IMG/VR virus record: IMGVR_UViG_3300033571_024374
Coordinates: 1-64,000 of that record
Length of the DNA: 64,000 nt
Source: a virus
Direction: 5' to 3' (one strand)
Shown: piece by piece, positions 1,507 to 63,759 of the stretch
Position numbering within the stretch: position 1 is the first letter of the stretch
How the letters are laid out: each line of letters starts with the position of its first letter
Notes under the pieces: generated by a model
What the model was told of the DNA's origin: nothing
Database searches by the model: none
What the model saw: only the letters and a program-made list of their open reading frames with translations
Translations under genes and position numbers: made by a program

Positions 1507-1926
1507 ATGAAACTAAAATTGAACTTTGAAGAATACTTGAGAGAATCAAAAATCTCTAATGAAACTAATGGTTATTGGTTTGTAGTAAGTGAAGACCAAA
1601 TAGTCGCAGTTTATGATAACCTAAAAGATGCTAAATCTTATTATGAAAAAGAAATAGACTTTAAAAAAGATCTATATTTCGATAAGTTTGTAGAGGATTT
1701 ACAGGATTCTGGTAGAAAAGTATGGGACTACGATTATCCACAAACATCGCCCTCAGAAATGATTTTAACAGATGAGGAATACGATGAGTATTTTGAAGAT
1801 AACTATGGTCATGAGATATTTTTAACGGGACCACATACCCTGACAGAATTACCTAAAGACATAGAATCACTTATGAATGAACAAATAATAGAAGATATTA
1901 AAAAGTTTGGTGCATTTGAATTGTAA
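1507..1926 (+). CDS. Leader-bearing small acidic protein, possibly packaged in the capsid
   Basis: The protein has 139 residues and starts MKLKLNFEEYLRESKISNE, a version of the leader shared by many proteins here; S-N-E at residues 17-19 could be a prohead-protease site. The rest is acidic and aromatic (WDYDYP, DEEYDEYFED) and resembles no domain I know. A GATATATA promoter lies just upstream and a hairpin terminator just downstream, so it is probably its own transcription unit. Packaging in the capsid is an inference from the leader alone. Confidence 0.75.
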   Translation: MKLKLNFEEYLRESKISNETNGYWFVVSEDQIVAVYDNLKDAKSYYEKEIDFKKDLYFDKFVEDLQDSGRKVWDYDYPQTSPSEMILTDEEYDEYFEDNYGHEIFLTGPHTLTELPKDIESLMNEQIIEDIKKFGAFEL

Positions 1927-1951
1927 ATATTCAAAAATATTCTTATATTAG

Positions 1952-1976
1952 ACCCATTGGGATATTCCTAATGGGT
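1952..1976 (+). terminator. Rho-independent terminator
   Basis: An 11-base stem (ACCCATTGGGA paired with TCCTAATGGGT, one G-T pair) with a 3-base loop is followed by a T-run. It lies 26 bases after the stop at 1926. Confidence 0.8.
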
Positions 1977-2011
1977 TTTTTATTATTTTTTCATAGTAAT
2001 TACGGTGCTTT

Positions 2012-2326
2012 ATGGATAAATCTATTTTGTTTTTTTATCATGCTTGTATTGTTGGTAATATAGAAATGATAGAATCTTTATTAGAATCTAGTGAAAATTT
2101 AAATATAAGCTACGCTGATGAATATGGAGATACCGCTTTACATAAGGCTGTTCTTTTTAACCAATATGATGTTGTTAAATATCTTCTTGATTTAGGATGT
2201 TCAAAAAATAAAAAGAATAGTTATGGCTGGACAGCACTAGATATGGCAATCGTAGATCAGAACGATTCTATCAGTAATCTATTACGTGATTATGGAGCTA
2301 CTGAATATTGTGTCAAATGGCAATAA
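2012..2326 (+). CDS. Ankyrin-repeat protein
   Basis: This 104-residue protein consists almost entirely of about three ankyrin repeats. The clearest unit contains DEYGDTALHKAV followed by YDVVKYLLDLG, and the next begins NSYGWTALDMA. Ankyrin repeats are protein-binding scaffolds. No signal peptide, leader or catalytic domain is present. It is one of six ankyrin genes in the window, which makes a role in binding host or phage proteins likely but unproven. It converges on the endolysin gene, with a shared terminator between them. Confidence 0.85.
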   Translation: MDKSILFFYHACIVGNIEMIESLLESSENLNISYADEYGDTALHKAVLFNQYDVVKYLLDLGCSKNKKNSYGWTALDMAIVDQNDSISNLLRDYGATEYCVKWQ

Positions 2327-2351
2327 TTTGATACCTTCAAGATAAACTAAA

Positions 2352-2376
2352 AAAGCCGAGAAAATATCTCGGCTTT
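2352..2376. terminator. Bidirectional terminator
   Basis: A perfect stem (AAAGCCGAGA and its complement) with a short A/T loop is flanked by A-runs on the left and T-rich sequence on the right. It lies between the convergent genes ending at 2326 and 2400. Confidence 0.85.
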
Positions 2377-6022: not shown

Positions 6023-6030
6023 GATATATA
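6023..6030 (+). promoter_or_regulatory. Putative late promoter GATATATA
   Basis: The octamer lies 8 bases after the stop at 6015 and 45 bases before ATG 6076 of a leader-bearing gene, a longer gap than most other copies. Confidence 0.5.
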
Positions 6031-6075: not shown

Positions 6076-6990
6076 ATGAAATATATCAAGCTTTTTGAAG
6101 AGTTATTCAACGATGATGCGAAAAAGAAATTATCCTTTAATTCTACATTATTTCATTATTTTGAATATGGTGATTTAGATGATCTATCTATACCTATATT
6201 TGAATCTGATAAAGAAAAATGGTTCTTTAATCAGATGCTTGAACTTATTGATGAATTAAAGGATAATAACATAAACACAGATGATTATAAGAATGTTTAT
6301 AATCTAGGATTTAAGCCAAATGGTGGCTTAGCAATGTTTGATTTGGGATTTGGGGATTACTTTGAACACTTTGAAGAAGATCCTGCATCTATAGAGCTTC
6401 AAGAGAATAATACTATAATCGATAGATTATTAAAAACAATGAACATACCATTCTCCGAATTCATAGGTAAGGGAATGTTTGGATTCGCACATGATATTGG
6501 CGATAATAAAATCCTAAAAATAACTAAAGATAAATCAGAGGCAGTCAATTCAAATAAAATTAAAGGGAAAAAACTAAAACATATAGCAAATATTTACGAT
6601 GTTAAACAATTCATTGAAAACGAAGTTACATATTATGTTATAGTTCTTGAGAAACTAAGGTTAGACCCAACTATTGAAACTACTTATAGTAGTTTAGAGG
6701 GATTATTTGAAGATGCCAGGAATGAAAATTTACCCCAGAGTATAATAGAAGAGATAGGTAAAAAGCATAAACGAGTGTCTGAGTTTTTAAAAGATATGAT
6801 TCTATTAGGATATAAAGAAACTTGGGATAAATGGAGAGATCCACTCGAAGAGGAGGGTCTTCATGATATGTATGATTTTAATGAAATATCGGATTTGTCC
6901 GAATGGATTTACGGATCAGTAACAAACTTCAATGATATTGATGATGAACCCCCACAATATATTATAGATATATTAAAAAAATTACTTTAA
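6076..6990 (+). CDS. Leader-bearing protein with kinase-like motifs in permuted order
   Basis: The protein has 304 residues. It starts MKYIKLFEELFND, the capsid-leader type, but without a clear L-x-E site. Residues 128-150 resemble the N-lobe of protein kinases: a glycine loop (FIGKGMFGFAHDIG) followed by NKILKIT with a candidate ATP-binding Lys, then YYVIVLEKL as the hinge strand. No HRD or DFG motif follows. Instead NVYNLGFKPNGG followed by LAMFDLGFGD, which looks like the N and D(F/L)G elements of the catalytic C-lobe, lies before the glycine loop at residues 73-94. This suggests a circular permutation or a degenerate pseudokinase. It heads a unit with the genes at 6997 and 7638. Confidence 0.6.
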   Translation: MKYIKLFEELFNDDAKKKLSFNSTLFHYFEYGDLDDLSIPIFESDKEKWFFNQMLELIDELKDNNINTDDYKNVYNLGFKPNGGLAMFDLGFGDYFEHFEEDPASIELQENNTIIDRLLKTMNIPFSEFIGKGMFGFAHDIGDNKILKITKDKSEAVNSNKIKGKKLKHIANIYDVKQFIENEVTYYVIVLEKLRLDPTIETTYSSLEGLFEDARNENLPQSIIEEIGKKHKRVSEFLKDMILLGYKETWDKWRDPLEEEGLHDMYDFNEISDLSEWIYGSVTNFNDIDDEPPQYIIDILKKLL

Positions 6991-9324: not shown

Positions 9325-10227
9325 TTATGCTCTATAACCTTTTATGGCTTCACTAAATGCAATAGAAAAATAGTAAAGTACAAATTCGTAAATGAATTCA
9401 TTAATATAATACAATAAATTCCAGCCGATAGTTTTAGGTGTAGTTTCTGGTCTTTTTTGTTTCATTTGCATAAAACCATTACAACTCGCTAAAGCTTCTG
9501 AATAGTCCTCTAATCCAAATGCTGGATTCTTAATTACACCTTCAGAAGTTTGTTTCATATATGCATTGATACATTCTTCTTTATTATTTATAAATCTCAA
9601 GAAGTCATATGTTGTGAGAATTTCATCTTCCATTTTTAATGCATCTCTTAGCTTCCCTTCTCGTGCTAGTTTCCTTACATTCTTAGGATTTTCTAAGTTA
9701 TATTGCTTTGCTTCTTTTCTTAATGTAAATTCTGAATCATAATACTTATTCATAAGATTTACTACTTTCTCAACAAAATCCCCTAAGTATCCAGAAGTAA
9801 AATAACCAGCATTTATACCTTGTTCTTGATACATTTGTTGATACCATTCAGAGTTTTTGTAGTCTTTAGTTGCACCATCAGAAAGGTATTCCATTCTACC
9901 TTCAAGATCTTGTCTTTCTATATTAGTATCACTTGTATATTGATCTATATTTGCCCAAAGAATATAAAACAACTCTGAGGCTTTCATTTCCCCATCTCCG
10001 TATTTGATAACAACATTGTTATTAAGAGGATCTCCTTGATAACCCTTTCCGTAGATTATATCTTTTGCTACTCTCCACATTCTATCGTGGATATTGTTAT
10101 ACAAATCTTTGTATGTTATAGAGTTCAGACGTAGATTTTTGTATTTATAGACTTCATTTAAAGAAGAAGATGCATTTATTACCTCTTCATGTTCCTTTAA
10201 AAATTGAGCAAAGTTTGATATTTTCAT
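9325..10227 (-). CDS. Leader-bearing internal-type protein, distant paralog of the protein at 22194
   Basis: The protein has 300 residues. The leader is MKISNFAQFLKEHEE with a possible cleavage site at S-L-N-E/V (residues 22-26). The mature part contains RMWRVAKDIIYGKGYQGDP, then SELFYILWANIDQYTSD, and a C-terminal aromatic segment (INEFIYEFVLYYFSIAF). The gene at 22194 shows the same order: MWNKSIEVFYGKDYKGNP, a WVETDQF segment and a C-terminal IGYSFTYWISYYAYQYL. I infer a shared domain of packaged proteins. The function is unknown. Confidence 0.75.
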   Translation of the reverse strand: MKISNFAQFLKEHEEVINASSSLNEVYKYKNLRLNSITYKDLYNNIHDRMWRVAKDIIYGKGYQGDPLNNNVVIKYGDGEMKASELFYILWANIDQYTSDTNIERQDLEGRMEYLSDGATKDYKNSEWYQQMYQEQGINAGYFTSGYLGDFVEKVVNLMNKYYDSEFTLRKEAKQYNLENPKNVRKLAREGKLRDALKMEDEILTTYDFLRFINNKEECINAYMKQTSEGVIKNPAFGLEDYSEALASCNGFMQMKQKRPETTPKTIGWNLLYYINEFIYEFVLYYFSIAFSEAIKGYRA

Positions 10228-10252: not shown

Positions 10253-10260
10253 TATATATC
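10253..10260 (-). promoter_or_regulatory. Putative late promoter GATATATA
   Basis: TATATATC on the plus strand, 25 bases upstream of ATG 10227 of a leader-bearing gene. Confidence 0.55.
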
Positions 10261-10815: not shown

Positions 10816-11541
10816 TTACGCTTTTTTCTCTTCTGATGGAAATACATTTGCAGCAAGATTATCCTTTGTTCCAGCATCTGCTTTATCGAGCATTGAAACA
10901 TCAGAAAATTTTGAAGCCGCAATAGCTAAAAGTTGACCGAAATTAGTAACTTTTGATTTACCACCAAATACAATTACAATTGGAAGTTCAACTAATAATC
11001 CTTCTGGATTTACCTTTGTATATCCTTCATTAGGGAAAAATACTAATGATGCAGCTTGAGTAGAAAGTCCATTTTTAACATCGCCAGCTTCCCAGGAGAT
11101 TTTGTTTTCTGGTGTATCTGATGTATGCATGAAAAATCCTTTAGGTGCACTGTCACCAATAGCTTTCGCATCAAGAGCAATTTCATCTAAAGCTTTGATA
11201 AAATCAGCTTCTTTAGGCAACTTCATAGTTTCTAGATTTGAACCAGGTGCTGTACCTTTTAAAAGTGCTTTACCGCTACCCACTTCTTCTATTGCAAGAA
11301 CTCTAACATTTACTGCTGTAGAATCTTTAGAATCTGTTGATTTTTTCTCAACACCTCTACCTACAATACTAGTTAAAAGTTTTCTCATTTCATCTGGATT
11401 TTTAGCGGAATAAAAATCTTTTTGCAAAATGTCTAAAACTGGTGTTGCAAATGATTTTGAAGGACTAAATTCTACTTTTGGGGCAGCCGCAGCTTGATCT
11501 TGTTCATTAAGCCAAGATTCAAAAAGTTTAAGGTATTTCAT
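10816..11541 (-). CDS. Internal-type capsid protein with targeting leader (paralog 1 of 3)
   Basis: The protein has 241 residues. The leader MKYLKLFESWLNE is followed by QDQAAAA, so L-N-E/Q looks like a prohead-protease site. The rest is alternating strand and helix and shares its layout with the genes at 12361 and 16303: VLDI-x2-DF early on, a basic/Ser stretch, a central hydrophobic strand block, and a C-terminal LAIAASKFSDVSMLDKADAG resembling FATTKFANIAMLKNANAG. I infer an abundant internal head protein, comparable in role to T4 internal proteins. It has its own GATATATA promoter and a strong terminator. Confidence 0.8.
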   Translation of the reverse strand: MKYLKLFESWLNEQDQAAAAPKVEFSPSKSFATPVLDILQKDFYSAKNPDEMRKLLTSIVGRGVEKKSTDSKDSTAVNVRVLAIEEVGSGKALLKGTAPGSNLETMKLPKEADFIKALDEIALDAKAIGDSAPKGFFMHTSDTPENKISWEAGDVKNGLSTQAASLVFFPNEGYTKVNPEGLLVELPIVIVFGGKSKVTNFGQLLAIAASKFSDVSMLDKADAGTKDNLAANVFPSEEKKA

Positions 11542-11550: not shown

Positions 11551-11584
11551 AAATAATGTTTAATAATTTTAGTTTATATATCAG
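11551..11584. repeat. 34-bp repeat, copy 1, carrying the late promoter
   Basis: The 34 bases are identical to 13099-13132. Both copies sit just upstream of paralogous leader-bearing genes (10816 and 12361) and include the GATATATA octamer. They were probably duplicated together with the genes. Confidence 0.85.
11575..11582 (-). promoter_or_regulatory. Putative late promoter GATATATA
   Basis: 33 bases upstream of ATG 11541, inside the 34-bp repeat. Confidence 0.6.
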
Positions 11585-11757: not shown

Positions 11758-12318
11758 ATGAAAAAATTAATTTTACTCGTGCTCTTAAGCACATCTATGT
11801 TGGCTCAAAGTCAGTTCAATACTGGTGATACCATCACAGCCATAGACAAACTACGCTTTTTGGATTCCTTAAATAAATATAGAATCCTTGCAGGTGTAAA
11901 ACCTTTACAATACTCTTTTCGCCAAGATAGTTTGGCTAAAATAAGAACAGAAACAATATTTAATCGTATCGATAGCATTACGGAAGATGATTATAAATCA
12001 GAAATCCTTAGTCACATGCATTTTAATTTAAGAAAAGACATCAAAAGATTTGATAAATCCCATATTCCAGTTGATAGTTTTATTCAAATGTATGGTGAAT
12101 GCTCGGCAAGATTGAATAGACTAAATGTTTGTAAAGACCTAATATCTGAACTTTTTAATGGATGGAAAAATAGTAAAGAACACTGGGAAATTATGTTAGA
12201 TCCCAATTATGAATATATCTCTTTGAACTGGTTTATAGATAACCATAGACATATTAGACTACGTAAAGGAACTATTGCTTCATTAGTTTTAATTAAATAT
12301 GATATTGTAAAAAAATAA
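11758..12318 (+). CDS. Secreted CAP/SCP-domain protein (1 of 6)
   Basis: The protein has 186 residues. It has a signal peptide (MKKLILLVLLSTSMLAQ, cut likely before Q). The body follows the CAP (SCP/PR-1) pattern: FLDSLNKYRILAGVKPLQYS, then a His in SHMHFN, GECSARLN, then FNGWKNSKEHWEIMLDPNY and a final strand (GTIASLVLI). CAP proteins are secreted, and their function in bacteria and phages is mostly unclear. The host-type promoter suggests early expression. It is closely related to the genes at 13842 and 15706 and less so to 13224, 14454 and 15059. Confidence 0.8.
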   Translation: MKKLILLVLLSTSMLAQSQFNTGDTITAIDKLRFLDSLNKYRILAGVKPLQYSFRQDSLAKIRTETIFNRIDSITEDDYKSEILSHMHFNLRKDIKRFDKSHIPVDSFIQMYGECSARLNRLNVCKDLISELFNGWKNSKEHWEIMLDPNYEYISLNWFIDNHRHIRLRKGTIASLVLIKYDIVKK

Positions 12319-12322
12319 AAAT

Positions 12323-12344
12323 GGGGAAGTCAAATGACTTCCCC
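12323..12344. terminator. Terminator between convergent genes
   Basis: GGGGAAGTCA/TGACTTCCCC stem with a 2-base loop. The minus-strand side is followed by a long T-rich run, so it best terminates the gene at 12361, but it can serve both directions. Confidence 0.85.
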
Positions 12345-12360
12345 TTAATAGAATCATATA

Positions 12361-13089
12361 TTAATTTTTCTCAACTTCTACACCTTTACCTGGAGCATAG
12401 TTTTCAGGAATTTCATAACCTAGTGCTTTAGCAAGATTTTTTGGATTACCAGCATTTGCATTTTTCAACATTGCAATATTTGCAAATTTGGTTGTCGCGA
12501 ATGCTGCAATATTACCAAGGGTCGATTCAATAATCGTTTCTTTAGCACCTTTAGTGTGATCATATACAATCCAATCAGAACTCAAAACAAAATCTTCAGG
12601 TTTTCCAGCTTTGTCTGAACTTACCAAAACAATCTTTTTCTTTTCGGGATTATTCGTTTGCTCAATGGTGTCTTTATGTGAACCACCTAAAATATCTTCA
12701 CCACCCATTGAAACAACATAAATAGATTTTGCATCTTGAATCTTACCTGCATTTATACAAGTTATGAATGCCGCATTACCATCTTTGTCTTTTAAAGTGA
12801 ATCTAACATTATCAGTTTTGTCCTGACCTGGAACTGTTTTAAAATCAGTTACTGTGAAAAATGAAACTCTGATTTTTGAATCTGTTACTTTTTCACTTTT
12901 ATCAAAGCATTTGGCTAAAATACTACCTATAATTACTCTTTTTTGCTCGTCATCTGCTTTAGTGAAATCTTCATTACTAATATCTACAATGCGAGTGTCA
13001 AATGGTTTGCTGGGGTCAAAAGGTTTTACTTCTGATGTTGCTCCCTCTGCTTCATTCAACCAATTTTCAAAAAGTTTAAGATATTTCAT
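12361..13089 (-). CDS. Internal-type capsid protein with targeting leader (paralog 2 of 3)
   Basis: The protein has 242 residues. The leader MKYLKLFENWLNEAEG fits an L-N-E/A protease site. Downstream it shares with the gene at 16303 the motifs VKPFDPSKPF, DITNxDF-like, IIGSILAKC and a C-terminal LGNIAAFATTKFANIAML, ending KALGYEIPENYAPGKG; paralog 1 (10816) is more distant. No catalytic motif is visible. A prohead-packaged internal protein is the best guess. The upstream 34-bp repeat carries its promoter. Confidence 0.8.
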   Translation of the reverse strand: MKYLKLFENWLNEAEGATSEVKPFDPSKPFDTRIVDISNEDFTKADDEQKRVIIGSILAKCFDKSEKVTDSKIRVSFFTVTDFKTVPGQDKTDNVRFTLKDKDGNAAFITCINAGKIQDAKSIYVVSMGGEDILGGSHKDTIEQTNNPEKKKIVLVSSDKAGKPEDFVLSSDWIVYDHTKGAKETIIESTLGNIAAFATTKFANIAMLKNANAGNPKNLAKALGYEIPENYAPGKGVEVEKN

Positions 13090-13098
13090 AAAAATGTA

Positions 13099-13132
13099 AA
13101 ATAATGTTTAATAATTTTAGTTTATATATCAG
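13099..13132. repeat. 34-bp repeat, copy 2
   Basis: Identical to 11551-11584; see that entry. Located just upstream of ATG 13089. Confidence 0.85.
13123..13130 (-). promoter_or_regulatory. Putative late promoter GATATATA
   Basis: 33 bases upstream of ATG 13089, the same distance as in its repeat partner. Confidence 0.6.
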
Positions 13133-13154
13133 CTTTAAGCTATATTTTTCTAGA

Positions 13155-13186
13155 TTTGGAAAATTTATTATTTTTTATTATGTTTG
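13155..13186 (+). promoter_or_regulatory. Bacteroidetes-type promoter (TTTG, 20 bases, TATGTTTG)
   Basis: TTTG 13155-13158 and TATGTTTG 13179-13186, 37 bases before ATG 13224. Confidence 0.7.
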
Positions 13187-13223
13187 TACCAGACTATTTA
13201 AAAACTTAAACTAAAGGAAACTT

Positions 13224-13826
13224 ATGAAAACGATTATCTATTTCTTAATTATTTTGACATTCCAGACTATCACAGTAGCTCAAGATACTGAAGATTCTGG
13301 TTCTGATACTAATACATACAAGACTGAAGAAATATTTGTAAGTAGTGATTTCGATGTACTTGAAATCAAACAATTATTTTTAGATTCTTTAAATGCCGTA
13401 AGAAAAAGAAATAAATTCCCAGAACTAAAGTATAATTATGAACTTGAAGGATTAGTTAAATTAAGAACTAAAACTATTATAGATCATGTAGATCATATTG
13501 AAGATAAACTATATTACTCTAATTATATTAAGTTTAATCAATATAAGAATATCAGGGACTACAAATACTACTTTAATAATAATCTCTTTTTGGATCCAGC
13601 CCCGATGATTATCCACGAAGGTAATTTGTCAGTACCATCATATTACAAAGTAAAAGAAGTAATATTACATACAATTCAATCAATGAAAGATAATAAAAAA
13701 TCATGGAAAGAATTTTATGATCTTAAATATACCCATGTTGCCTTTGATTTTAGAAAAGGCGTAAGGCGAACAGTAGTATCAGTTATATTCTCTAAAAGAA
13801 GGTTTAATCCTGTCCCTAATAAATAA
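13224..13826 (+). CDS. Secreted CAP-like protein (2 of 6, divergent)
   Basis: The protein has 200 residues. It has a signal peptide (MKTIIYFLIILTFQTITVAQ) and an acidic/Thr-rich insert before the domain. FLDSLNAVRKRNKFPELKYN aligns with the first CAP helix of its neighbours, and KLRTKTIIDHVDHI matches LRTETIFKHIDSI. The C-terminal W-x-x-x-x-H block is degraded (KDNKKSWKEFYDLKYTHVAF), so this is the most divergent copy. It shares a transcript with 13842 and 14454 (gaps of 15 bases each). Confidence 0.72.
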   Translation: MKTIIYFLIILTFQTITVAQDTEDSGSDTNTYKTEEIFVSSDFDVLEIKQLFLDSLNAVRKRNKFPELKYNYELEGLVKLRTKTIIDHVDHIEDKLYYSNYIKFNQYKNIRDYKYYFNNNLFLDPAPMIIHEGNLSVPSYYKVKEVILHTIQSMKDNKKSWKEFYDLKYTHVAFDFRKGVRRTVVSVIFSKRRFNPVPNK

Positions 13827-13841
13827 TTCAATAAGGCTACA

Positions 13842-14438
13842 ATGTATAATCTAATGAATATATCGCTTATCATTTTGTTTGGAACTATGTCTTTAATGGC
13901 TCAAAGCCAATATAAGACTGGTCATACTATTACTAGCCAAGACAAACTACGTTTCTTGGATTCTTTGAATAAGTATAGGATTCTTGCAGGTGTAGAACCA
14001 TTAGAATATTCATTCCAAGAAGATAGTTTGGCTAAATTAAGAACGGAAACTATTTTTAAACATATTGATAGTATCTCTGAAGAAGAATATAGATTAAATC
14101 CTTTAGAAAATCTTCATTTCAATTTCGTAGAAGATATTAAGAAATACATAACCGAAAATATTCATCAGGATAGCGTTCTCTACTGGAGTGCAGAATGCTC
14201 TGCAAGAATTAGCAAATTGAATAATCCAGATGATTTGATTAATGAACTGTTTAACGGATGGAAAAATAGTAAAGACCACTGGAAAGTTATGTTAGACGGC
14301 AGATATACATCTATATCACTCTCATGGCATATAGATAATTATAGGAATATTAGAAAAAGAAAAGGAACTATCGCGTCTCTGGTACTTTTTAAAAAAGATA
14401 TGACAAAAAAAGAAAAAGAAAGACGAAGTAAATTATAA
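13842..14438 (+). CDS. Secreted CAP/SCP-domain protein (3 of 6)
   Basis: The protein has 198 residues with a signal peptide ending LMAQ. The CAP pattern is clear (FLDSLNKYRILAGVEPLEYS, AECSARIS, FNGWKNSKDHWKVML, GTIASLVLF). The stretch from RFLDSLNKYRILAG through LAKLRTETIFKH is nearly identical to the gene at 15706, which implies a recent duplication or gene conversion. It ends with a Lys/Arg-rich tail (KKEKERRSKL). It is the middle gene of the 13224-14954 unit. Confidence 0.8.
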   Translation: MYNLMNISLIILFGTMSLMAQSQYKTGHTITSQDKLRFLDSLNKYRILAGVEPLEYSFQEDSLAKLRTETIFKHIDSISEEEYRLNPLENLHFNFVEDIKKYITENIHQDSVLYWSAECSARISKLNNPDDLINELFNGWKNSKDHWKVMLDGRYTSISLSWHIDNYRNIRKRKGTIASLVLFKKDMTKKEKERRSKL

Positions 14439-14453
14439 TCAGGTTACCTATTT

Positions 14454-14954
14454 ATGAAAGAACTTATCATCTTCTTGTTTACAGTTACATCTGTATTTGC
14501 TCAGGATTCAAATAATGTTAAAATTATTAAAAAAATTAATGAACTCCGTGTATCTAAAGGTTTAGATACTTTAAAATATGATGAAAGCTTATTTTTAGTA
14601 GGTAAAGACTGGAGTAAGTATATTCTCCATAAAATTAATAATTTTTCTGTAAATAAATTATCTTCAAATCATTATAAAAATCCAATGTTTCTTCATATCA
14701 ATTATAATTCACGATTTGACCAAGTTTTAAAAAGAAAAGATGTATTTTCTATTGGAGAAAATATTAACCTTTCACTTGATATTGAAGATACCAATAATAT
14801 TATAGATCATGCATTTGATTGCTGGAAGAAAAGCTCAAACCATTATAATCTCATGGTCAAAAAAGAACAAACTAATGTAGCATTTAGCTTTTCTTATAGT
14901 AAAAAAACAAAAAGAATGCTATGTATATTAGTTATATCTGAAAATATAAAATAA
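14454..14954 (+). CDS. Secreted CAP/SCP-domain protein (4 of 6, most canonical)
   Basis: The protein has 166 residues with a signal peptide MKELIIFLFTVTSVFAQ. It is closest to the textbook CAP layout: KKINELRVSKGLDTLKYDE at the first helix, SIGENINLS (the G-E-N motif), and FDCWKKSSNHYNLM (W-x-x-S-x-x-H-x-x-x-M). This gene is what makes the CAP assignment of the whole cluster convincing. It is the last gene of its unit. Confidence 0.83.
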   Translation: MKELIIFLFTVTSVFAQDSNNVKIIKKINELRVSKGLDTLKYDESLFLVGKDWSKYILHKINNFSVNKLSSNHYKNPMFLHINYNSRFDQVLKRKDVFSIGENINLSLDIEDTNNIIDHAFDCWKKSSNHYNLMVKKEQTNVAFSFSYSKKTKRMLCILVISENIK

Positions 14955-15022
14955 AAAAGGGACATTTACATATACTAATGAATTTAAAATATTTTTCTTA
15001 CATGATCCAATATATTTTTTAT

Positions 15023-15030
15023 TATCTTTG
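15023..15030 (+). promoter_or_regulatory. Bacteroidetes-type -7 element TATCTTTG
   Basis: TATCTTTG lies 28 bases before ATG 15059 in the same context (TTTTTTATTATCTTTGTCTT) as the promoter at 15666. A TTTG -33 element is not evident. Confidence 0.55.
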
Positions 15031-15058
15031 TCTTAGAAATTAAATAAGGATATATGTC

Positions 15059-15628
15059 ATGAAACGACTCATCATCTTTTTATTTGCAGCTACGTCTGTA
15101 TTTGCACAGACTCAGTTCAAAACTGGCGATATGATCACTACTCAGGATAAACTACGTTTCTTGGATTCTTTGAATAAATACCGAAATATGTATGGAATAC
15201 CTGAATTAAAATATTCATTCAAGTATGAAGGTATTTCTGTAAATAGAATAGAGACCATTAGAACTCATATTAAAAAGATAGGTTATGAAGAATGTAGGAA
15301 GGACATCAGAAAACATTTACATATTAATTTTATGGAAGATTTCTGCAAATTTAATATCAATACTCTACCAGAAGACACTACATTTACTTGGAAGGGCGAA
15401 TGCACTCTTTCTGTAAATAATGGCTATGTCCTTGAAAAAAAACTTGATATTATTACTGAAATTTTTACAGCTTGGAAAGAAAGCCAAGACCATTGGTGCA
15501 ATATGCTTGATCCAGATTTTAAATATATTGCTTTGGCTTTTGAATACAAAGACGGAATAATCATTTCGGTACTTAATTCCTTTGATTTAGAATGTACCGA
15601 TGTTGAAAAGAAATCTTGTAATAAATAA
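15059..15628 (+). CDS. Secreted CAP/SCP-domain protein (5 of 6)
   Basis: The protein has 189 residues with a signal peptide (MKRLIIFLFAATSVFAQ). It shows FLDSLNKYRNMYGIPELKYS, GECTLSVN, and TAWKESQDHWCNMLDPDFKYIALAF. It has more cysteines than its paralogs, several near the C-terminus (ECTDVEKKSCNK). Possible disulfides would fit a secreted protein. Its first 45 residues are nearly identical to other copies, while the body has diverged. Confidence 0.78.
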   Translation: MKRLIIFLFAATSVFAQTQFKTGDMITTQDKLRFLDSLNKYRNMYGIPELKYSFKYEGISVNRIETIRTHIKKIGYEECRKDIRKHLHINFMEDFCKFNINTLPEDTTFTWKGECTLSVNNGYVLEKKLDIITEIFTAWKESQDHWCNMLDPDFKYIALAFEYKDGIIISVLNSFDLECTDVEKKSCNK

Positions 15629-15641
15629 TTAATAAAATAAA

Positions 15642-15673
15642 TTTGCATAATTCAATATTTTTTATTATCTTTG
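15642..15673 (+). promoter_or_regulatory. Bacteroidetes-type promoter (TTTG, 20 bases, TATCTTTG)
   Basis: TTTG 15642-15645 and TATCTTTG 15666-15673, 32 bases before ATG 15706. It closely matches the promoter at 11695-11726. Confidence 0.75.
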
Positions 15674-15705
15674 TCTTAGAAATTAAATCAATAAGGAATT
15701 ATGTT

Positions 15706-16278
15706 ATGAAACAACTCGTCATCTTCTTGTTTACATTTACATCTGTATTTGCACAGAATCAATTCAAAACTAGCGATACTATTACAAATGAAGACAAACT
15801 ACGCTTCTTGGATTCTCTAAATAAGTATAGAATCCTTGCAGGTGTAGAACCATTAGAATATTCATTCCAAGAAGATAGTTTGGCTAAATTAAGAACGGAA
15901 ACTATTTTTAAACATGTTGATAGTATTTCTGAAGAAGAATACAAATCAGATTGGATGGAACATCAGCATCATAGATTCATCGAAGATGTTAGAAAATACG
16001 ACAAATCAAATGTTCATAAAGATACTGTTATCAATTGGAGCGCAGAATGCTCCGCTCGAATCAGCAAATTAAATAATCCAGATGATTTAGTTAATGAATT
16101 GTTTCAAGGATGGAAGAATAGTAAAGCACATTGGAAAATGATGCTTGAACCGAAATTTAAATATATTGTATTAGATTGGTTCATCGATAATCAAAGGCAC
16201 ATAAAATTACGCAAAGGAACTATTGCATCTCTCGTACTTTTTAGTAAAAGGTTTAATGAAAATTCAAGGGGTAACTAA
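15706..16278 (+). CDS. Secreted CAP/SCP-domain protein (6 of 6)
   Basis: The frame is open from 15643, but that extension contains the promoter; ATG 15706 gives a clean signal peptide (MKQLVIFLFTFTSVFAQ) and 190 residues. CAP motifs: FLDSLNKYRILAGVEPLEYS, MEHQHHRF (His), AECSARIS, FQGWKNSKAHWKMMLEP, and GTIASLVLF. It is nearly identical to the gene at 13842 in the first half. It converges on the internal-protein gene at 16303 through a shared terminator, just as 11758 converges on 12361. Confidence 0.8.
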   Translation: MKQLVIFLFTFTSVFAQNQFKTSDTITNEDKLRFLDSLNKYRILAGVEPLEYSFQEDSLAKLRTETIFKHVDSISEEEYKSDWMEHQHHRFIEDVRKYDKSNVHKDTVINWSAECSARISKLNNPDDLVNELFQGWKNSKAHWKMMLEPKFKYIVLDWFIDNQRHIKLRKGTIASLVLFSKRFNENSRGN

Positions 16279-16302: not shown

Positions 16303-17037
16303 TTATTTAGTTGTAACTTCTATACCACCATCTTTCGGTGCATAATTATCAGGAATCTCATATCCCAATGCTTTAGCAATGTTTTGTGGTTTCCCTGCAT
16401 TTGCATCTTTCAATATAGCCAAATTTTCAAAGTTTGATGTAGCAAAAGCACAAATTCCACCAAGTGTAGTTTTAATAGCTTGGATACTTTCTTTAGGATC
16501 TGACCAATTTATTAAATGACCTTCTTCATAAAGGCAGAAGCCATTACCAGAAGAATCACCACTCATACCACTTGGAAAGAATAAAAATGTTTTAGGTTTC
16601 TTTAAAATATTAGGATAACCCGTTTCTGACACCCAATCTTCTCCACTATATTTACTAATGTAGTATACAGAATCACCTTCTTGCAAATTAAGATCATTTG
16701 GAATGATCATTTTTATTGTCTTAGAAACTCCACTAGCTCTTCCTTCTTTTACAAAAATTGTAGCAGTTTTTAAATATTGAGGTATTCTTATTTCTTCAAT
16801 ATTGAATTTGATAATAGTAAGTTCAGAATCCTTTTCTTTTTCATTTTTCTTTACACATTTTCCCAAAATACTGCCCATAATTCTACTTGAATATTTACCA
16901 TCATCCTGATTAAAATCAAGTGATGTAATATCCACTACAAGAGTTTCTCCTGGTTTTTTAGGATCAAATGGTTTTACTTCTGATTTTCCTTCTTCTGCTT
17001 CGTTGAGCCAATTCTCAAACAATTTTACATATTTCAT
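16303..17037 (-). CDS. Internal-type capsid protein with targeting leader (paralog 3 of 3)
   Basis: The protein has 244 residues. The leader MKYVKLFENWLNEAEE is nearly the same as paralog 2. Shared motifs are VKPFDPKKPG, IMGSILGKC, LGGICAFATSNFENLAIL and KALGYEIPDNYAPKDG. It lacks catalytic motifs. Together with the convergent CAP gene it repeats the arrangement seen at 11758-13089. It has its own GATATATA promoter 30 bases upstream. Packaging is inferred from the leader. Confidence 0.8.
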   Translation of the reverse strand: MKYVKLFENWLNEAEEGKSEVKPFDPKKPGETLVVDITSLDFNQDDGKYSSRIMGSILGKCVKKNEKEKDSELTIIKFNIEEIRIPQYLKTATIFVKEGRASGVSKTIKMIIPNDLNLQEGDSVYYISKYSGEDWVSETGYPNILKKPKTFLFFPSGMSGDSSGNGFCLYEEGHLINWSDPKESIQAIKTTLGGICAFATSNFENLAILKDANAGKPQNIAKALGYEIPDNYAPKDGGIEVTTK

Positions 17038-17067: not shown

Positions 17068-17075
17068 TATATATC
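17068..17075 (-). promoter_or_regulatory. Putative late promoter GATATATA
   Basis: 30 bases upstream of ATG 17037. Confidence 0.6.
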
Positions 17076-20718: not shown

Positions 20719-20726
20719 GATATATA
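20719..20726 (+). promoter_or_regulatory. Putative late promoter GATATATA
   Basis: 30 bases upstream of ATG 20757, first gene of a two-gene leader-bearing unit. Confidence 0.6.
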
Positions 20727-24930: not shown

Positions 24931-24938
24931 TATATATC
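24931..24938 (-). promoter_or_regulatory. Putative late promoter GATATATA inside a longer open frame
   Basis: 24 bases upstream of ATG 24906. Its position supports the internal start with the LNE leader. Confidence 0.5.
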
Positions 24939-37226: not shown

Positions 37227-37234
37227 TATATATC
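37227..37234 (-). promoter_or_regulatory. Putative late promoter GATATATA
   Basis: 21 bases upstream of ATG 37205, in the 36-base gap after the gene at 37242. Confidence 0.6.
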
Positions 37235-47077: not shown

Positions 47078-48919
47078 ATGGATAAAATAGCCATAGTTGG
47101 GACAGGTTATGTTGGATTAGTAACTGGCTTGTGTTTAGCCGACAAGAATAATTCAGTCATTTGTGTGGATATAGACGAAGAAAAGATAAAAAGGCTAAAA
47201 TGTGGGGAAAGTCCTATTTATGAGCCAGACTTAGAAATGCTTCTACAAAAATATATCTTAAATGGTAAAATAAGTTTCAGCACTGATTTAGAACTAGCTG
47301 TAAGAAAAAGCTGGTGTATATTTCTTTGTTTACCTACACCTTCAGATGAAGATGGATCAGCGGATTTGAAATATGTATTAAGAGCTTCCGAGGATATAGC
47401 AAATATAATTGCACAACAAGGTGACAGGGAATTTCTTATTGTAAACAAATCGACAGTTCCCGTTGGAACCTCAGAAAAAATAAAAAATATATTTAAGTCT
47501 AAGGGTCTTTCAAAAGTTGTAGTTGCTTCAAACCCTGAATTTTTAAGAGAGGGATATGCGATTTACGATTTTATGAATCCAGACAGAATTGTCATAGGGA
47601 CAGAAAATGAATGGGCTAAAAAAGAATTTCTAGAATTATATTTACCATTTACTCATACAGATAAGAATATTTTGTTTATGGATGAAAAAAGCGCAGAGCT
47701 TACAAAATATGCTTCTAATTCTTTCCTAGCTGTAAAAATATCATATATGAATGATTTAGCAAAGTTATGTGAAAGTATAGGTGCTGACATAGATTCAATT
47801 CGTTTAGGTATGGGACTCGATGAAAGGATAGGGGAAAAATTTTTATTTGCTGGTTTAGGCTACGGTGGTTCTTGTTTTATGCCAAATGAAACCATAAGTA
47901 TCGTAATCGATGGTGCATACAAGAAAATATCATTTGAAAATTTATGGAAAGAATTTGAAACTGAGGAAATCCAAAGAACCGAAAACTTCGAATTAATTAA
48001 TCTAGAAAGTAAAGATTTTTATACATTAGGATTTGATTTCTTCAATTACGTTTCTGAAAACCAAAAGATTTATTATCTAACAAGAAGAAGTTACAATCAA
48101 AAGGTCCTTTCATATGAAACTAAAAATGGACACAAACAGATGCTAACATTAGATCACCCAGTGATTTTTAATGCAGAAAACAATATACCTACATTATGTT
48201 TAGCTAAAGATGTCAAAGTCGGTTTCGTGATCTACTCATTCAATGAAAATTCTATGCCCTCTAATTTCAATTTAGATGAGATTATAAAAGTAGAACATAT
48301 AGATACACCTACCGATATCGTTTATAGTATAGAAACTCAGAATGAAACAGTTATTACTGGAAACGGTATAGTTTCACATAATTGTTTTCCAAAAGATGTT
48401 AGAGCTATTCTAAAAACTGGTTCAGATAATAACATAGATTTAAGTATAATTAAATCAGCTATGGAAATCAATCAGGAGCAACGGAATATTTTTATACATA
48501 ACATAGATCAAAAATTAAAAGAACTATCACTGGAAAGTCCAGAAATAGCAATTTGGGGCATTTCCTTTAAACCTAATACCGATGATATACGAGAAGCCCC
48601 TTCAATTGAGGTGATCGAACATTTATTAGATAAAGGTCTTAAAGTAAGGGCCTATGATCCGCAAGCTAAAGACATCCCATTCAATAAAAATAAAAACTTC
48701 CGTAGAAGCTCAAGTGTCCTTGAGTCTACGGAAGATGCTGATCTTTTAATTATATGTACAGAGTGGGAAGAATTTAAGAATATTGATTTGCAACAACTTA
48801 AATCTTCTATGCGAGGTTCTACCATAATCGATGGTAGAAATATTTGGGATTTAGAGCATATGCAAAACTCTGGACTTAATTATATTTCTATCGGAAGAAA
48901 AGAAATTAAGAAATCTTAA
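47078..48919 (+). CDS. ugd: UDP-glucose 6-dehydrogenase interrupted by an intein
   Basis: The protein has 613 residues; removing a 170-residue intein leaves 443, the normal length. The N-terminal Rossmann fold is IAIVGTGYVGLVTGLCL. NKSTVPVGTS and SNPEFLREGYAIYDFMNPDR follow. The active-site motif G-G-S-C-F-P-K-D is split: GYGGS precedes the intein and CFPKD follows. The C-terminal domain has ISFKPNTDDIREAPS. The enzyme makes UDP-glucuronate from UDP-glucose, for surface sugars or protein decoration. Until the intein splices, the catalytic Cys is not in place. Confidence 0.95.
   Translation: MDKIAIVGTGYVGLVTGLCLADKNNSVICVDIDEEKIKRLKCGESPIYEPDLEMLLQKYILNGKISFSTDLELAVRKSWCIFLCLPTPSDEDGSADLKYVLRASEDIANIIAQQGDREFLIVNKSTVPVGTSEKIKNIFKSKGLSKVVVASNPEFLREGYAIYDFMNPDRIVIGTENEWAKKEFLELYLPFTHTDKNILFMDEKSAELTKYASNSFLAVKISYMNDLAKLCESIGADIDSIRLGMGLDERIGEKFLFAGLGYGGSCFMPNETISIVIDGAYKKISFENLWKEFETEEIQRTENFELINLESKDFYTLGFDFFNYVSENQKIYYLTRRSYNQKVLSYETKNGHKQMLTLDHPVIFNAENNIPTLCLAKDVKVGFVIYSFNENSMPSNFNLDEIIKVEHIDTPTDIVYSIETQNETVITGNGIVSHNCFPKDVRAILKTGSDNNIDLSIIKSAMEINQEQRNIFIHNIDQKLKELSLESPEIAIWGISFKPNTDDIREAPSIEVIEHLLDKGLKVRAYDPQAKDIPFNKNKNFRRSSSVLESTEDADLLIICTEWEEFKNIDLQQLKSSMRGSTIIDGRNIWDLEHMQNSGLNYISIGRKEIKKS
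47873..48382 (+). other. Mini-intein in UDP-glucose dehydrogenase
   Basis: The intein spans residues 266-435. It begins with Cys (CFMPNETISIVIDGAY, block A), has block B as MLTLDHPVIF, block F as DIVYSIETQNETVITGNG and ends VSHN before the +1 Cys (block G). About 170 residues with no LAGLIDADG or HNH motif indicate a mini-intein without a homing endonuclease. The +1 residue is the dehydrogenase's own catalytic Cys. Confidence 0.93.
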
Positions 48920-58848: not shown

Positions 58849-59280
58849 TTAATTCAATGGTAAGTATCTTTTAGATTTTAACTTATAAACTTTACCGTCA
58901 TATTCATAAATCAGAATAAATGGTTTCTTTCCACCTTCAGGTAATAAAGAAACTTCTATAGTTAGGATTTCTTTCAATGGGAAATTATATGGTGAATAAT
59001 TCTTTTGAAGATAATTCATAAGGTGATTACCTAAATTCTCATCAATCCATTGTCTGTGTAAATCAAAAGAATATCCAGTATTGTCATTATTTGTGTAATA
59101 AACATCCCCGACCAAATAACCTTCGCTTTCATCTTGATTATAAATCATTTCAACGCCATCTTCATCAATAAATTTGATGGTTTTAACTGCACAATTTTTT
59201 GAGGTAGGAATATCCCATTGATCTACACTATCTGTTTCTTTTGGGGTAAACTCTTCAAATAATAAAAAGTACTTTTTCAT
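58849..59280 (-). CDS. Leader-bearing protein of unknown function
   Basis: The protein has 143 residues starting MKKYFLLFEEFTPKETD, leader-like but without an L-x-E site. The rest (DEDGVEMIYNQDESEGYLVG, GYSFDLHRQWIDENLGNHLM, and KPFILIYEYDGKVYKLKSKR) is strand-rich and unrecognised. GATATAAA, a variant of the late motif, lies 36 bases upstream (59317-59324). Confidence 0.7.
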   Translation of the reverse strand: MKKYFLLFEEFTPKETDSVDQWDIPTSKNCAVKTIKFIDEDGVEMIYNQDESEGYLVGDVYYTNNDNTGYSFDLHRQWIDENLGNHLMNYLQKNYSPYNFPLKEILTIEVSLLPEGGKKPFILIYEYDGKVYKLKSKRYLPLN

Positions 59281-59370: not shown

Positions 59371-59378
59371 GATATATA
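59371..59378 (+). promoter_or_regulatory. Putative late promoter GATATATA
   Basis: 27 bases upstream of ATG 59406, within a longer TA run. Confidence 0.55.
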
Positions 59379-59405
59379 TATATCTAAACAATTAAACTTT
59401 TTACT

Positions 59406-60095
59406 ATGAGAAATTTTAAAGAATTTTTGACACTATTAAGCGAGTCCTCAATCATTGAGCAGGATTCCTTAAAAGAGCAATACCAAATAGAGGAAATTCT
59501 TTTGGAAAATGGATGTAATATATGTCTATTTAGTTCAGCAGGGATGGAACCAGATAATCGTGGATTAGTTAATCCCGACATAAGAAGGCTTAAAGGCACT
59601 TTAGGGGCTGTACAAACGCTGAATAACACAAAAGCAGGTCATATTATCAATCAAGCAGCAAAGATGTTCTCAGAGCATATGGTTGATAAAAATTTCGATG
59701 TTGTTGGAACAATCAAGACCATGAAAACTAACTTAGCAGGTGATCTAGTCGATAAAATAGATTTCTCAGATGGTCGAAAGCCTATGGTATTGAAAAACCT
59801 TATCTATTTGACAAAAACTAGAGACGATGTTAAAACAACTAGCGAAAACATCGATAAGAAGGTTTCTAGAATGTTTAAGTTCGGAGATTTTGATATTGAA
59901 AAGATCGGTAAGGACGATAAGGCGAATGTAAAAGGTTTCTTGGGTGTAAATCCATCACTTGAGCATAAAATTATGGGTAAAAACATCGCAATCATCGATG
60001 ACTATGCTGAAACTGGCACAACATTGAGAGAAGCATGTGATGCGTTGCTCAAATGCGGTGCTAAATCAGTTTCTGGATATGCTATATTGAAATAA
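59406..60095 (+). CDS. Leader-bearing phosphoribosyltransferase-like protein
   Basis: The protein has 229 residues. The leader MRNFKEFLTLLSE/SS is close to the T4-type MKxFxEFL form with an L-S-E site. The C-terminal part holds the PRPP-binding motif IAIIDDYAETGTTLREA (about residues 194-210). Upstream KGTLGAVQTLNNTKAGHIIN would form the hood or core strands. Type I PRTases use PRPP to attach or remove bases; the specific reaction is unknown. A packaged PRTase would act at once after DNA entry. Confidence 0.78.
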   Translation: MRNFKEFLTLLSESSIIEQDSLKEQYQIEEILLENGCNICLFSSAGMEPDNRGLVNPDIRRLKGTLGAVQTLNNTKAGHIINQAAKMFSEHMVDKNFDVVGTIKTMKTNLAGDLVDKIDFSDGRKPMVLKNLIYLTKTRDDVKTTSENIDKKVSRMFKFGDFDIEKIGKDDKANVKGFLGVNPSLEHKIMGKNIAIIDDYAETGTTLREACDALLKCGAKSVSGYAILK

Positions 60096-60153: not shown

Positions 60154-60156
60154 CTT

Positions 60157-60866: not shown

Positions 60867-61451
60867 ATGAAGTATATCAAACGATTAGATGAAATGGAAG
60901 AAATCTTGAATAAAGATAAAACTATCATTTCCAGAATAGCATTTTATGATTTTGATGGAACTATTATAGATTCCCCTATGCCAGAACTTGGGAAATTATT
61001 ATGGGCTAAAGAGAAAGGTATGAAATACCCCCATGTAGGTTGGTGGTCTAAACCAGAAAGTTTAGACTTGAATATTTTCGATATTAAAACTATAAAGAAT
61101 GTTGAAATAAGATTACAACGAGATATAGATGATAAAAATTGTTGGGTAGTATTATTGACTAATAGGTTATTAAAGTTACAACCTGACGTTTTAAACGTTC
61201 TTAATTATTTAAATATAAAGGTAGATGAATTTCAGATGAAAGATCAGCTACATTATACTAAAAACATAAGAATAAAAAATGTTATACAAGACTTTCCACA
61301 ATTGACACAAATAGATATTTTAGACGATGACCAAAAGAATATCGATGATTTTATTGAACTTAGAGATGAATTACAACAAGAGGGTATAGCCGTTTCTATA
61401 TACAAAGTAACGGCTCAAGATAAAGAAAACCCAATAAGACGAATAGACTAA
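60867..61451 (+). CDS. Leader-like HAD phosphatase (HAD_SAK type)
   Basis: The protein has 194 residues. The N-terminus MKYIKRLDEMEEIL resembles the leader. The HAD motif I is FYDFDGTIIDSPMPE (Asp28, Asp30), motif II lies in WVVLLTNRLL, and the acidic motif IV is IDILDDDQKN. The D-F-D-G-T-x-x-x-S-P-x-P form matches the HAD_SAK group linked to RNA and DNA repair (end phosphatases). A late-motif variant AATATATA lies 25 bases upstream. The convergent gene ends 1 base later. Confidence 0.78.
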   Translation: MKYIKRLDEMEEILNKDKTIISRIAFYDFDGTIIDSPMPELGKLLWAKEKGMKYPHVGWWSKPESLDLNIFDIKTIKNVEIRLQRDIDDKNCWVVLLTNRLLKLQPDVLNVLNYLNIKVDEFQMKDQLHYTKNIRIKNVIQDFPQLTQIDILDDDQKNIDDFIELRDELQQEGIAVSIYKVTAQDKENPIRRID

Positions 61452-61452
61452 A

Positions 61453-62109
61453 TTATTCATTAGGCGAACACCACAATAAACCTCTACTTCTGTTTACATA
61501 AAAGAAGTCTGGAGATCCTCCATAATGTAGCATAGTTTCAGACATATGCGAATGGTTTGGGTAATAAAGCATTGAGTTCCAAATTAATTCTTTGTTTATG
61601 TATTTCATATATTCCCCTATAGCATATGATATGTGCTTATGTTTTTCTACTGTACCCATATCAAAAAAATCATGAACCGCCATATATCCATCTTCAGCGA
61701 TGTATGGGGTATAATCTACAAAATCTCTTAAATGCTGTTCTCCATTTGCATCCCAGTCTATAAAAACTAAAGCACAATTCTTCAAAACATATTTTGTTAA
61801 GTTTATATGTGCTTCATAAGATTTTTTCTCAATATGTGCTATTCTACCAGATTGTAAATGTTCTGCACAATTCTCATAAAATTTATCTTTGGCTAACTTA
61901 TTATCATTATCTACCATCTCATAGGGGTCAATAGCAATAATGCGTTTATTTGTATTTTCTGCAAGATATTTGGTAGTTTCTCCCTTTAAAACTCCAACCT
62001 CAATAATAAATTCACCTTTAGAAGAGTTAGCTAGTTCAACTAGTTTTTTCTTTTCTACAGGCCATAAAGAAGCGTTAAAATAAGCGTGCATTTCTTCTGA
62101 AACTTGCAT
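61453..62109 (-). CDS. Class I SAM-dependent methyltransferase
   Basis: The protein has 218 residues. Motif I is FIIEVGVLKGETTKYLAE, followed by RIIAIDPYE (acidic motif II) and ALVFIDWDANGEQHLRDF. This is the Methyltransf_24 layout, often used on sugars or small molecules. The C-terminal AVHDFFDMGTVEKHKH contains a candidate metal-binding D-F. The substrate is not evident; a sugar acceptor would fit the other sugar genes in the window. Confidence 0.8.
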   Translation of the reverse strand: MQVSEEMHAYFNASLWPVEKKKLVELANSSKGEFIIEVGVLKGETTKYLAENTNKRIIAIDPYEMVDNDNKLAKDKFYENCAEHLQSGRIAHIEKKSYEAHINLTKYVLKNCALVFIDWDANGEQHLRDFVDYTPYIAEDGYMAVHDFFDMGTVEKHKHISYAIGEYMKYINKELIWNSMLYYPNHSHMSETMLHYGGSPDFFYVNRSRGLLWCSPNE

Positions 62110-62159
62110 AAAAATTTCTTTTTAGTAATATAGGTTATTTAAAAATTATGTTCATAAAA

Positions 62160-62183
62160 AAAGCCTATCCGAAGATAGGCTTT
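62160..62183 (-). terminator. Rho-independent terminator with TTCG-type loop
   Basis: AAAGCCTATC paired with GATAGGCTTT. On the minus strand the loop reads TTCG and a T-run follows, directly after the stop at 62188. Confidence 0.9.
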
Positions 62184-62187
62184 TTGT

Positions 62188-63759
62188 TTAGAATCTGTTT
62201 CTGTATTCTAGTAGAATATTGAACTTTTCAAAGTTTATCACTCTCGACATATTTTGTGAATATTTTTTCAAGAGTTCTTTTTCTTCATCGGTAAGAGAAT
62301 CAAAACCAAGTTCAGAAATTTTGTCTAAAAGTTGATCCAATGTAGGCTTAGATTCCTTTTCTTTTGCCATTTTTTGAATCTTACTTATTTCATCTTCCAT
62401 TTCTGTTTCAGGCGATTCCTCATATCTAGGCTCTTCCATTTCTGGCTCTTCTGAAGTAGCACCCATCGCATTTGCATAAATTGTAGCTACTTCTTCGATT
62501 GGCCACATATCTCTATCTATTTCTTCATTAAATATTCTTTTGAACAAATCCATAAATACAGCATCAGGTGTTATTTGTTGATCATATAGATCACGTAAAA
62601 CATTATACATCATGGTTTCATCATGTTCCGTAATAACACCTTTCTTAATCAAATGATTCTCGACATCAATAAAGAACTCTCTGAATATATTTACGATCAT
62701 AGGTCCATAAACAAATCCCTGTTGTTCCTTAAACCAATTCTCAGTCTTTGCTTTAATTCTTTCTAGCTTCTCTTTTTCATACTTCATACCAAAATGAGAG
62801 ATTACTTCAAATACTCCTTTAATCATCTCTTGAATTGCTAAGATTAAGCAAAAAGCTTTAACTTCAATAACAGGCTTACCGTCTTTATAGATAACATGCA
62901 TTCTCGCTGGAACGATAGCTCCACCACCGCCCATTTGACCACCTTGTTGATCTTGCATTTTTTGCATATATTCCATCATTTGCTTGAACATTTCAATATC
63001 CATATACTTATGAGACTCTAAACTAGTTCTCATAAATTTAAAATACTTTTCAAGTAAATCTGAATTTATTTGATCAACGAGGTCTTGCATATCCTCATCA
63101 AACATACGACCTTGACTAGTTAAAGCAAATCCTTGTGTAAGTGCATTTATAATTTCTCTTTTGCTAATTGCTAGTTTAATGTCTTCGTCAGTTTCTTCTT
63201 TTCCCTTTTCTGCTTTAGGTACATCTCCACCCAAATTACTTTCAGGATCTCTTACAAACTCTACATCAAATTCTAAATCAGAGAATTGAGGTCCCTTTTT
63301 CATCAATGCGGAACCATCAATAATCTTCTTAACAATTTCTCTAGCTATATTTTCAAGTTCTTCATCAGAAAACGTTTCTTGTTCAATTCGACCTATTTCC
63401 ATCATTGTTTGCATGGCTTCCATACCCATACGTTGAAATTGCATTTGGTCAGGTCTAGGTAAACTCTTTTTAAACTTGCCAAAAGATGGAAGGTCTTCCA
63501 AACCTTCTTTAATAGAATATTTAGAATCTGATTTATATAAAGAATTAAAACGTTCAATACATTTCTTTAACTCTTCCTTCCAGTTTTTAGGAACTGGATT
63601 AATACTTGGTTGAGGTGGATTAAATGGTGAAGGTCTCTCTGGAGTTCTTTCTGGAGTCTCTACAGGTGCTTCTTTTGGGGCTGGTTTAGTTTCAGGTTCA
63701 GCTGCTGGCATATTATATGCATACTCATTTAATCCAAGTAGATATTTCATTTTTTTCAT
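62188..63759 (-). CDS. Large leader-bearing internal/structural-type protein
   Basis: The protein has 523 residues. The start MKKMKYLLGLNE/YAY carries an L-N-E site (or it may start at the second Met). A Pro/Glu-rich linker (residues 18-58) precedes a helical body with a Met/Gln-rich segment (MMEYMQKMQDQQGGQMGGGG). Near the end, LDQLLDKISELGFDSLTDEE is a short helix pair seen in many proteins. The last 20 residues (MSRVINFEKFNILLEYRNRF) look like a second leader at the C-terminus. A head core, portal-associated or internal role is possible. It has its own promoter and terminator. Confidence 0.72.
   Translation of the reverse strand: MKKMKYLLGLNEYAYNMPAAEPETKPAPKEAPVETPERTPERPSPFNPPQPSINPVPKNWKEELKKCIERFNSLYKSDSKYSIKEGLEDLPSFGKFKKSLPRPDQMQFQRMGMEAMQTMMEIGRIEQETFSDEELENIAREIVKKIIDGSALMKKGPQFSDLEFDVEFVRDPESNLGGDVPKAEKGKEETDEDIKLAISKREIINALTQGFALTSQGRMFDEDMQDLVDQINSDLLEKYFKFMRTSLESHKYMDIEMFKQMMEYMQKMQDQQGGQMGGGGAIVPARMHVIYKDGKPVIEVKAFCLILAIQEMIKGVFEVISHFGMKYEKEKLERIKAKTENWFKEQQGFVYGPMIVNIFREFFIDVENHLIKKGVITEHDETMMYNVLRDLYDQQITPDAVFMDLFKRIFNEEIDRDMWPIEEVATIYANAMGATSEEPEMEEPRYEESPETEMEDEISKIQKMAKEKESKPTLDQLLDKISELGFDSLTDEEKELLKKYSQNMSRVINFEKFNILLEYRNRF

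Follow-up and report, generated by a model that had tools for sequence, protein, structure and literature searches.

A short N-terminal leader, probably a capsid-targeting propeptide, on about thirty mostly unrelated proteins of a giant phage of Bacteroidota type with a gp23-type capsid

Introduction

The closest described counterpart of the leaders reported here is the capsid targeting sequence (CTS) of phage T4, a short N-terminal propeptide with an aromatic/hydrophobic core that is carried by the unrelated proteins IPI-III and Alt and is removed after L/I-x-E by the S77 protease gp21 (PMC9026906). Ten residues of it are enough to have a protein packaged; positions 4 and 7 contribute mainly to targeting and positions 8 and 10 control cutting. 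A review of T4 has already raised the possibility that T4-like phages use the CTS to carry a variety of proteins (PMC9026906). The phages phiKZ and SPN3US, a group separate from the gp23-type phages considered here, represent a second system in which giant-phage head proteins bear N-terminal propeptides that are cut by a gp21-related protease; these propeptides are mostly longer than 100 residues, with motifs of the A/S-x-E type and no shared short tag (PMC5694885), whereas the leaders described below measure ~8-25 aa.

The system that we report shares with the T4 CTS the short N-terminal segment on unrelated proteins, the aromatic/hydrophobic core and, as predicted from sequence, cleavage after L/I-x-E by a protease of the S77 family. 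It differs in scale (~30 cargo proteins against about four in T4), in a consensus that is specific to each lineage, in a protease that is fused to a repeat scaffold and in a cargo rich in enzymes, muralytic proteins and ankyrin proteins. The principle is known; what appears to be new in the literature searched is its scale, together with the codes specific to each lineage and the phage group concerned. In that literature, which covered few subscription journals, we found neither descriptions of such leaders in Bacteroidota phages nor virion proteomics on the leader proteins of the relatives.

Sequences and approach

The window, that is the whole stretch of DNA analysed, comprises bases 1-64,000 of a 123,972-base virus record; a 199,927-base record (G001) includes the window sequence together with head genes that are absent from the shorter one. 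Blind EM motif finding was unsuccessful when given half of the genes of the window phage, and out-of-sample and leave-one-out profiles were used instead. In the latter, each listed leader was scored against a profile of the others, with 2,037 internal windows from the phage's own proteome as background and a cut-off of 0.5% false positives. The closest annotated relatives of the capsid protein belong to phages that infect Bacteroidota and to giant phages from metagenomes. The relatives in which leader clusters were compared are LR756500, phage PAU, Lak and one IMG/VR phage (G002). The host of PAU was deposited as Sphingomonas, and we take it to be really a member of the Bacteroidota.

A common leader on most of the listed genes

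The preliminary description had attributed a common leader to sixteen genes of the window, and in the window translations all 16 N-termini are as listed. They are given below with the predicted cut as a slash, the evidence ('profile' denotes a score above the cut-off) and the promoter-like site, where present:

1507-1545, + strand: gene 1507, leader MKLKLNFEEYLRE/S of a 139-aa protein; profile (0.2% of internal windows); promoter 1476-1483
6076-6099, + strand: gene 6076, leader MKYIKLFE/ELFND of a 304-aa protein; profile; promoter 6023-6030
10153-10227, - strand: gene 9325, leader MKISNFAQFLKE..SSSLNE/V of a 300-aa protein; profile; promoter 10253-10260
11503-11541, - strand: gene 10816, leader MKYLKLFESWLNE/Q, paralogue 1 of 3; profile; promoter 11575-11582
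13051-13089, - strand: gene 12361, leader MKYLKLFENWLNE/A, paralogue 2 of 3; profile; promoter 13123-13130
16999-17037, - strand: gene 16303, leader MKYVKLFENWLNE/A, paralogue 3 of 3; profile; promoter 17068-17075
20757-20816, + strand: gene 20757, leader MIPNFNNFQKFNSENQKLNE/GNFISSD of a 477-aa PG-binding protein; weak profile, homologues keep the junction; promoter 20719-20726
22194-22262, + strand: gene 22194, leader MKRRILNFESFLLENTKPTVINE/D of a 361-aa protein; profile and junction comparison
24877-24906, - strand: leader MRTFYEYLNE/S of a PG-binding protein starting at 24906; profile; promoter 24931-24938, within a longer ORF
32404-32439, + strand: gene 32404, leader MLSFEQFQSIFE/S of an ankyrin protein; profile; promoter 32352-32359
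36542-36595, - strand: gene 36005, leader MSNIKLFEEFINDYELNE/N of a DUF5824 protein; profile, G002 homology from residue 19
37182-37205, - strand: gene 36645, leader MKYLRLFE/D of an ankyrin protein; profile; promoter 37227-37234
59254-59280, - strand: gene 58849, leader MKKYFLLFE/E of a 143-aa protein; profile; promoter site 59377-59384
59406-59444, + strand: gene 59406, leader MRNFKEFLTLLSE/S of a phosphoribosyltransferase-like protein; profile; promoter 59371-59378
60867-61451, + strand: gene 60867, HAD-like protein, leader not supported; 9% of internal windows score as high
62188-63759, - strand: gene 62188, 523-aa protein, N-terminus MKKMKYLLGLNE/Y unsupported by profile, LNE present; late-type promoter 63787-63794

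Thirteen of the sixteen (1507, 6076, 9325, 10816, 12361, 16303, 22194, 24906, 32404, 36005, 36645, 58849 and 59406) score above 99.5% of internal windows when left out of the profile. Gene 20757 is borderline, 2% of internal windows scoring as well, and is retained on other evidence; 60867 (9%) and 62188 (22%) are not supported and should be dropped from the list. The start at 24906 inside a longer ORF, as proposed earlier, is backed by the promoter-like GATATATA at 24931-24938.

The signal is real and reproducible out of sample, and is also apparent in an unsupervised, profile-free triplet test, in which LFE occurs within the first 20 residues of 14 genes (0.6 expected) and Y..LF within those of 10 genes (0.2 expected). 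The pattern is an aromatic/hydrophobic F-x-x-F/W-L-x-E preceded by K and Y/L residues; it resembles that of T4 MKTYQEFIAE, the residues being particular to each lineage. [LI]NE ending at residues 8-45 is enriched 2.7-fold in the window phage proteome (p=7e-5) and 3.2-fold in the relative G002, and [LI]ND, [LI]NQ and [LI]NK, tested likewise, are not enriched. In the leaders of 6076, 36645 and 58849, L-F-E lies within the core motif only and no LNE follows downstream. A C-terminal version of the tag, hinted at by the C-termini of the 62188 product and of a neighbouring protein, gave 0 matches and was not enriched.

A profile trained on the listed leaders also recovers 9 of the 139 genes outside the window, where 0.7 would be expected, so that the genome-wide search suggested in the preliminary description extends the set. 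About ten further leader genes are backed by junction conservation, which brings the total to about thirty among 220 genes; the strict profile accounts for 22 of them, and junctions and promoters support the others. No leader is present on the replication, tail and baseplate genes examined.

Late-type promoters and the level of conservation

Of 33 leader genes, 18 are preceded at a distance of ~30 nt by the motif GATATATA (leader genes versus the rest, p=3e-5), which also lies upstream of sheath, tube, fibre and other structural genes. The window contains 23 copies against 7.8 expected, and the 199.9-kb record contains 64 (e.g. window 1476, 11575 and 20719), mostly intergenic and ~30 nt before start codons. 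A host-type element, TTTG-N17-21-TAnnTTTG, is located upstream of nine other genes and of no leader or structural gene. The canonical T4 late promoter TATAAATA, from which GATATATA differs, is not enriched. The phage encodes a gp55-like late sigma factor, and we infer from this and the shared GATATATA that the leader genes are made late, together with the head proteins. Another gene with a late-type promoter (L003:12544-15450, - strand) encodes a 968-aa protein with repeated CarD/KOW-like segments.

This coincidence with late-type promoters is what one would also see if the common N-terminus reflected the translation or the mRNA of late genes, a matter of start-region composition and not a protein signal. 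The leader is absent, however, from sheath, tube, fibre and other late genes that have this promoter too, and conserved residues are encoded by several codons: the invariant leader leucine uses four different codons, so that conservation resides at the protein and not the DNA level and selection therefore acts on the peptide. Together with homology boundaries that fall at the predicted cut, these observations render an mRNA feature extremely improbable.

The leader as a separable module

Comparisons of homologues place those boundaries precisely. In the family of 20757 the junctions read KLNE/GNFISSD, RLNE/SNFISSD, RVDE/SNFISSD and NISE/GNFISAD, preceded by a segment that varies in length and sequence. 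Where MITRYSKFKEAKLNE/IAGIYDGYYG is set against its relative MITKFDIYSNNKLNE/IAGIYDGYYG, 4 of 12 leader residues are common compared to 23 of the first 25 mature residues. Residue 1 of the leaderless paralogue G001 78103 aligns with residue 17 of leader-bearing 77120, right after LNE16, and homology between the DUF5824 protein 36005 and its G002 homologue, which bears the G002 leader instead, begins at residue 19, right after LNE18. The leader thus behaves as a discrete, separable module ending at the predicted cut. AlphaFold models of the 20757 family were confident for the PG-binding domain only (mean pLDDT 49).

Some of the leader-bearing families are paralogous, as would be the case had a neutral N-terminus been spread by recent gene duplication or 5'-end recombination. 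Most carriers are mutually unrelated, though, the leader DNA differs while the pattern is kept, and five phages maintain different consensus leaders, each on many genes; we give this explanation hardly any weight.

A prohead protease and its predicted cut sites

The preliminary description would have been refuted by a full genome devoid of any prohead protease; the genome does encode one, beside the capsid gene. A Pfam search for S77 on the 124-kb contig alone gave no match because this contig is without the head genes, which the longer record supplies: a gp23-type major capsid protein (PF07068, 8e-40) and, as the first part of a 672-residue protein, a Peptidase_S77 prohead protease (PF03420; G001 166459-168477, L015:14459-16477). 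Aligned with T4 gp21 and with cyanophage and relatives' proteases, it retains the catalytic residues, namely the histidine in GxLxHP, the serine in SSR and an aspartate downstream. The remainder of the protein resembles a scaffold and is built of tandem repeats with endings such as YLAE, YIAE and HIAE; it has 2.49 [LI][AN]E per 100 aa compared to 0.20 in the proteome. Long protease-scaffold proteins are also found in LR756500, G002, pT24, PTm1 and Lak.

The capsid protein has a predicted site, HTLNE43/SSAYQ, at the position where T4 gp23 is cleaved during maturation, and LNE43/S44 is invariant in relatives that are 77-84% identical. Its L-N-E is the tripeptide that closes many leaders, and the leader segment in general ends at L/I-x-E like the other predicted substrates of the same protease (LNE43 of the capsid protein and the [LI]AE repeats of the scaffold). 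The mature capsid protein of PAU comprises 520 of 585 residues by N-terminal sequencing (PMC5646251); the cut predicted from its sequence, LME64/N65, leaves 521, within one residue of the measured value. A phage lysozyme gene adjoins the protease gene (G001 168648-169532, L015:16648-17532); the N-terminus of its product, MKSLILE/N (MRYLILE/S in relatives), contains L-x-E, and the lysozyme may be packaged as well.

Different leaders in several relatives

The relatives carry leaders of different consensus: MKYIKEYEEFLNE on 32 genes of LR756500, MKSYKSFLNE on 15 genes of G002, MKTLSKLYE (MK[TS][LI]xxLYE) on 20 of 290 genes of PAU and NKxIKxLLESLFDD on 14 genes within the 70% of the Lak-A1 genome that was read, where internal-window controls give 3-9 genes. 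In the same N-terminal test T4, unlike the window phage, shows no cluster beyond 4-5 genes, and nor do P-SSM2, Syn9, PTm1 and MaF61; pT24 has a weak cluster of 7 genes. Three of these phages (pT24, PTm1 and MaF61) possess gp23-type capsids despite a weak or absent leader cluster.

In the deposited record of PAU, which leaves the basis unstated, five proteins are labelled 'internal capsid protein', and four of the five bear the leader (p=8e-5); other PAU leader genes lack the label, which argues that the labels were not derived from the leader. Many PAU leader genes cluster around the portal, protease and capsid genes. PAU differs from the window phage in its consensus, in a separate protease gene and in a cargo that is not homologous to that of the window.

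The cargo and its destination

Recognised cargo domains include PG_binding_1, Peptidase_M15, ankyrin repeats, DUF5824, phosphoribosyltransferase, RimK-like ATP-grasp and FMN-reductase-like domains. Of the broad cargo originally proposed, ankyrin, phosphoribosyltransferase-like and PG-binding proteins have a supported leader; the leader of the HAD-like 60867 protein is unsupported by profile, and the 6076 protein, described as kinase-like, has no Pfam match. The leader-bearing RimK-like ATP-grasp ligase (L002:15596-17014, - strand) has a C-terminal segment with a weak match to a retropepsin-like peptidase (NF052263). Between phages the cargo is almost wholly different, a turnover that fits an arms-race or host-adaptation set, as expected.

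Peptidoglycan-binding and M15 peptidase domains would act in the periplasm, and their presence on several cargo proteins is compatible with a leader that sends proteins elsewhere, to the host envelope or another compartment. We deem this very unlikely: the leader is not a secretion-signal pattern, secreted proteins of the window (e.g. 11758 and 13224) have signal-peptide-like N-termini, the cut sites fit the prohead protease that the phage itself encodes and the PAU labels point to the capsid interior. Proteins with signal peptides form a tandem of five at 11758-16278 (+ strand), the two tested being of the CAP superfamily (PF00188). Elsewhere in the window there is an S41 peptidase with a PDZ domain, unusual for a phage (25029-26297, - strand), and a UDP-glucose 6-dehydrogenase with an intein at the GGSC motif region (47078-48919, + strand; TIGR01445, TIGR01443; residues ~266-436).

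Discussion

By far the best reading of the leader is that of a capsid-targeting propeptide, as first proposed, and we hold it to be very probable; the protease, the cut-site chemistry, the late promoters, the paralogue boundaries, the lineage-specific leaders and the PAU labels all point to it. The leaders that lack a downstream LNE, and the weak or absent clusters of pT24, PTm1 and MaF61, speak against it. Late in infection, tagged proteins would be made from the late-type promoters of structural proteins, with which their genes are associated. By analogy with T4, the N-terminal segment would dock on the core scaffold while the prohead grows, and the scaffold-fused protease, recognised like its sites by sequence, would cut after (L/I)-x-E and free the cargo inside the head. 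The same protease would degrade the scaffold at its many L/I-A-E repeats, and the cargo would presumably enter the next host together with the ejected DNA.

Alternatively, the leader could target the scaffold while most of the cargo comprises head-assembly or core factors that are degraded or kept in the head and not delivered: leader-bearing PAU gp152 is annotated as 'scaffolding', and the family of 20757, 70509 and 72301 consists of large, helical proteins whose genes lie close to structural ones. Many cargo proteins, however, contain enzyme, ankyrin or peptidase domains, and almost none is common to different phages, unlike core head parts, which makes this alternative possible but rather unlikely. 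For the gp23-type clade of Bacteroidota phages (the window phage, LR756500, PAU and Lak) we lean, with little better than even confidence, towards a leader that has turned into an address code of general use. It would evolve fast, in step with the scaffold and protease of each phage, and would bring dozens of effectors, themselves quickly exchanged, into the host at infection, among them muralytic enzymes, ankyrin proteins and protein-modifying and nucleotide enzymes.

Phage-injected proteins are normally known only via virion proteomics of cultured phages. If the address-code reading is true, the injected proteome of uncultured giant phages would be readable from sequence: the leader of each genome would yield a list of likely injected proteins, including those of the gut Lak megaphages, and with it candidate early effectors and anti-defence proteins. 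The lineage-specific leaders would furthermore offer orthogonal address tags for loading proteins into the heads of Bacteroidota phages.
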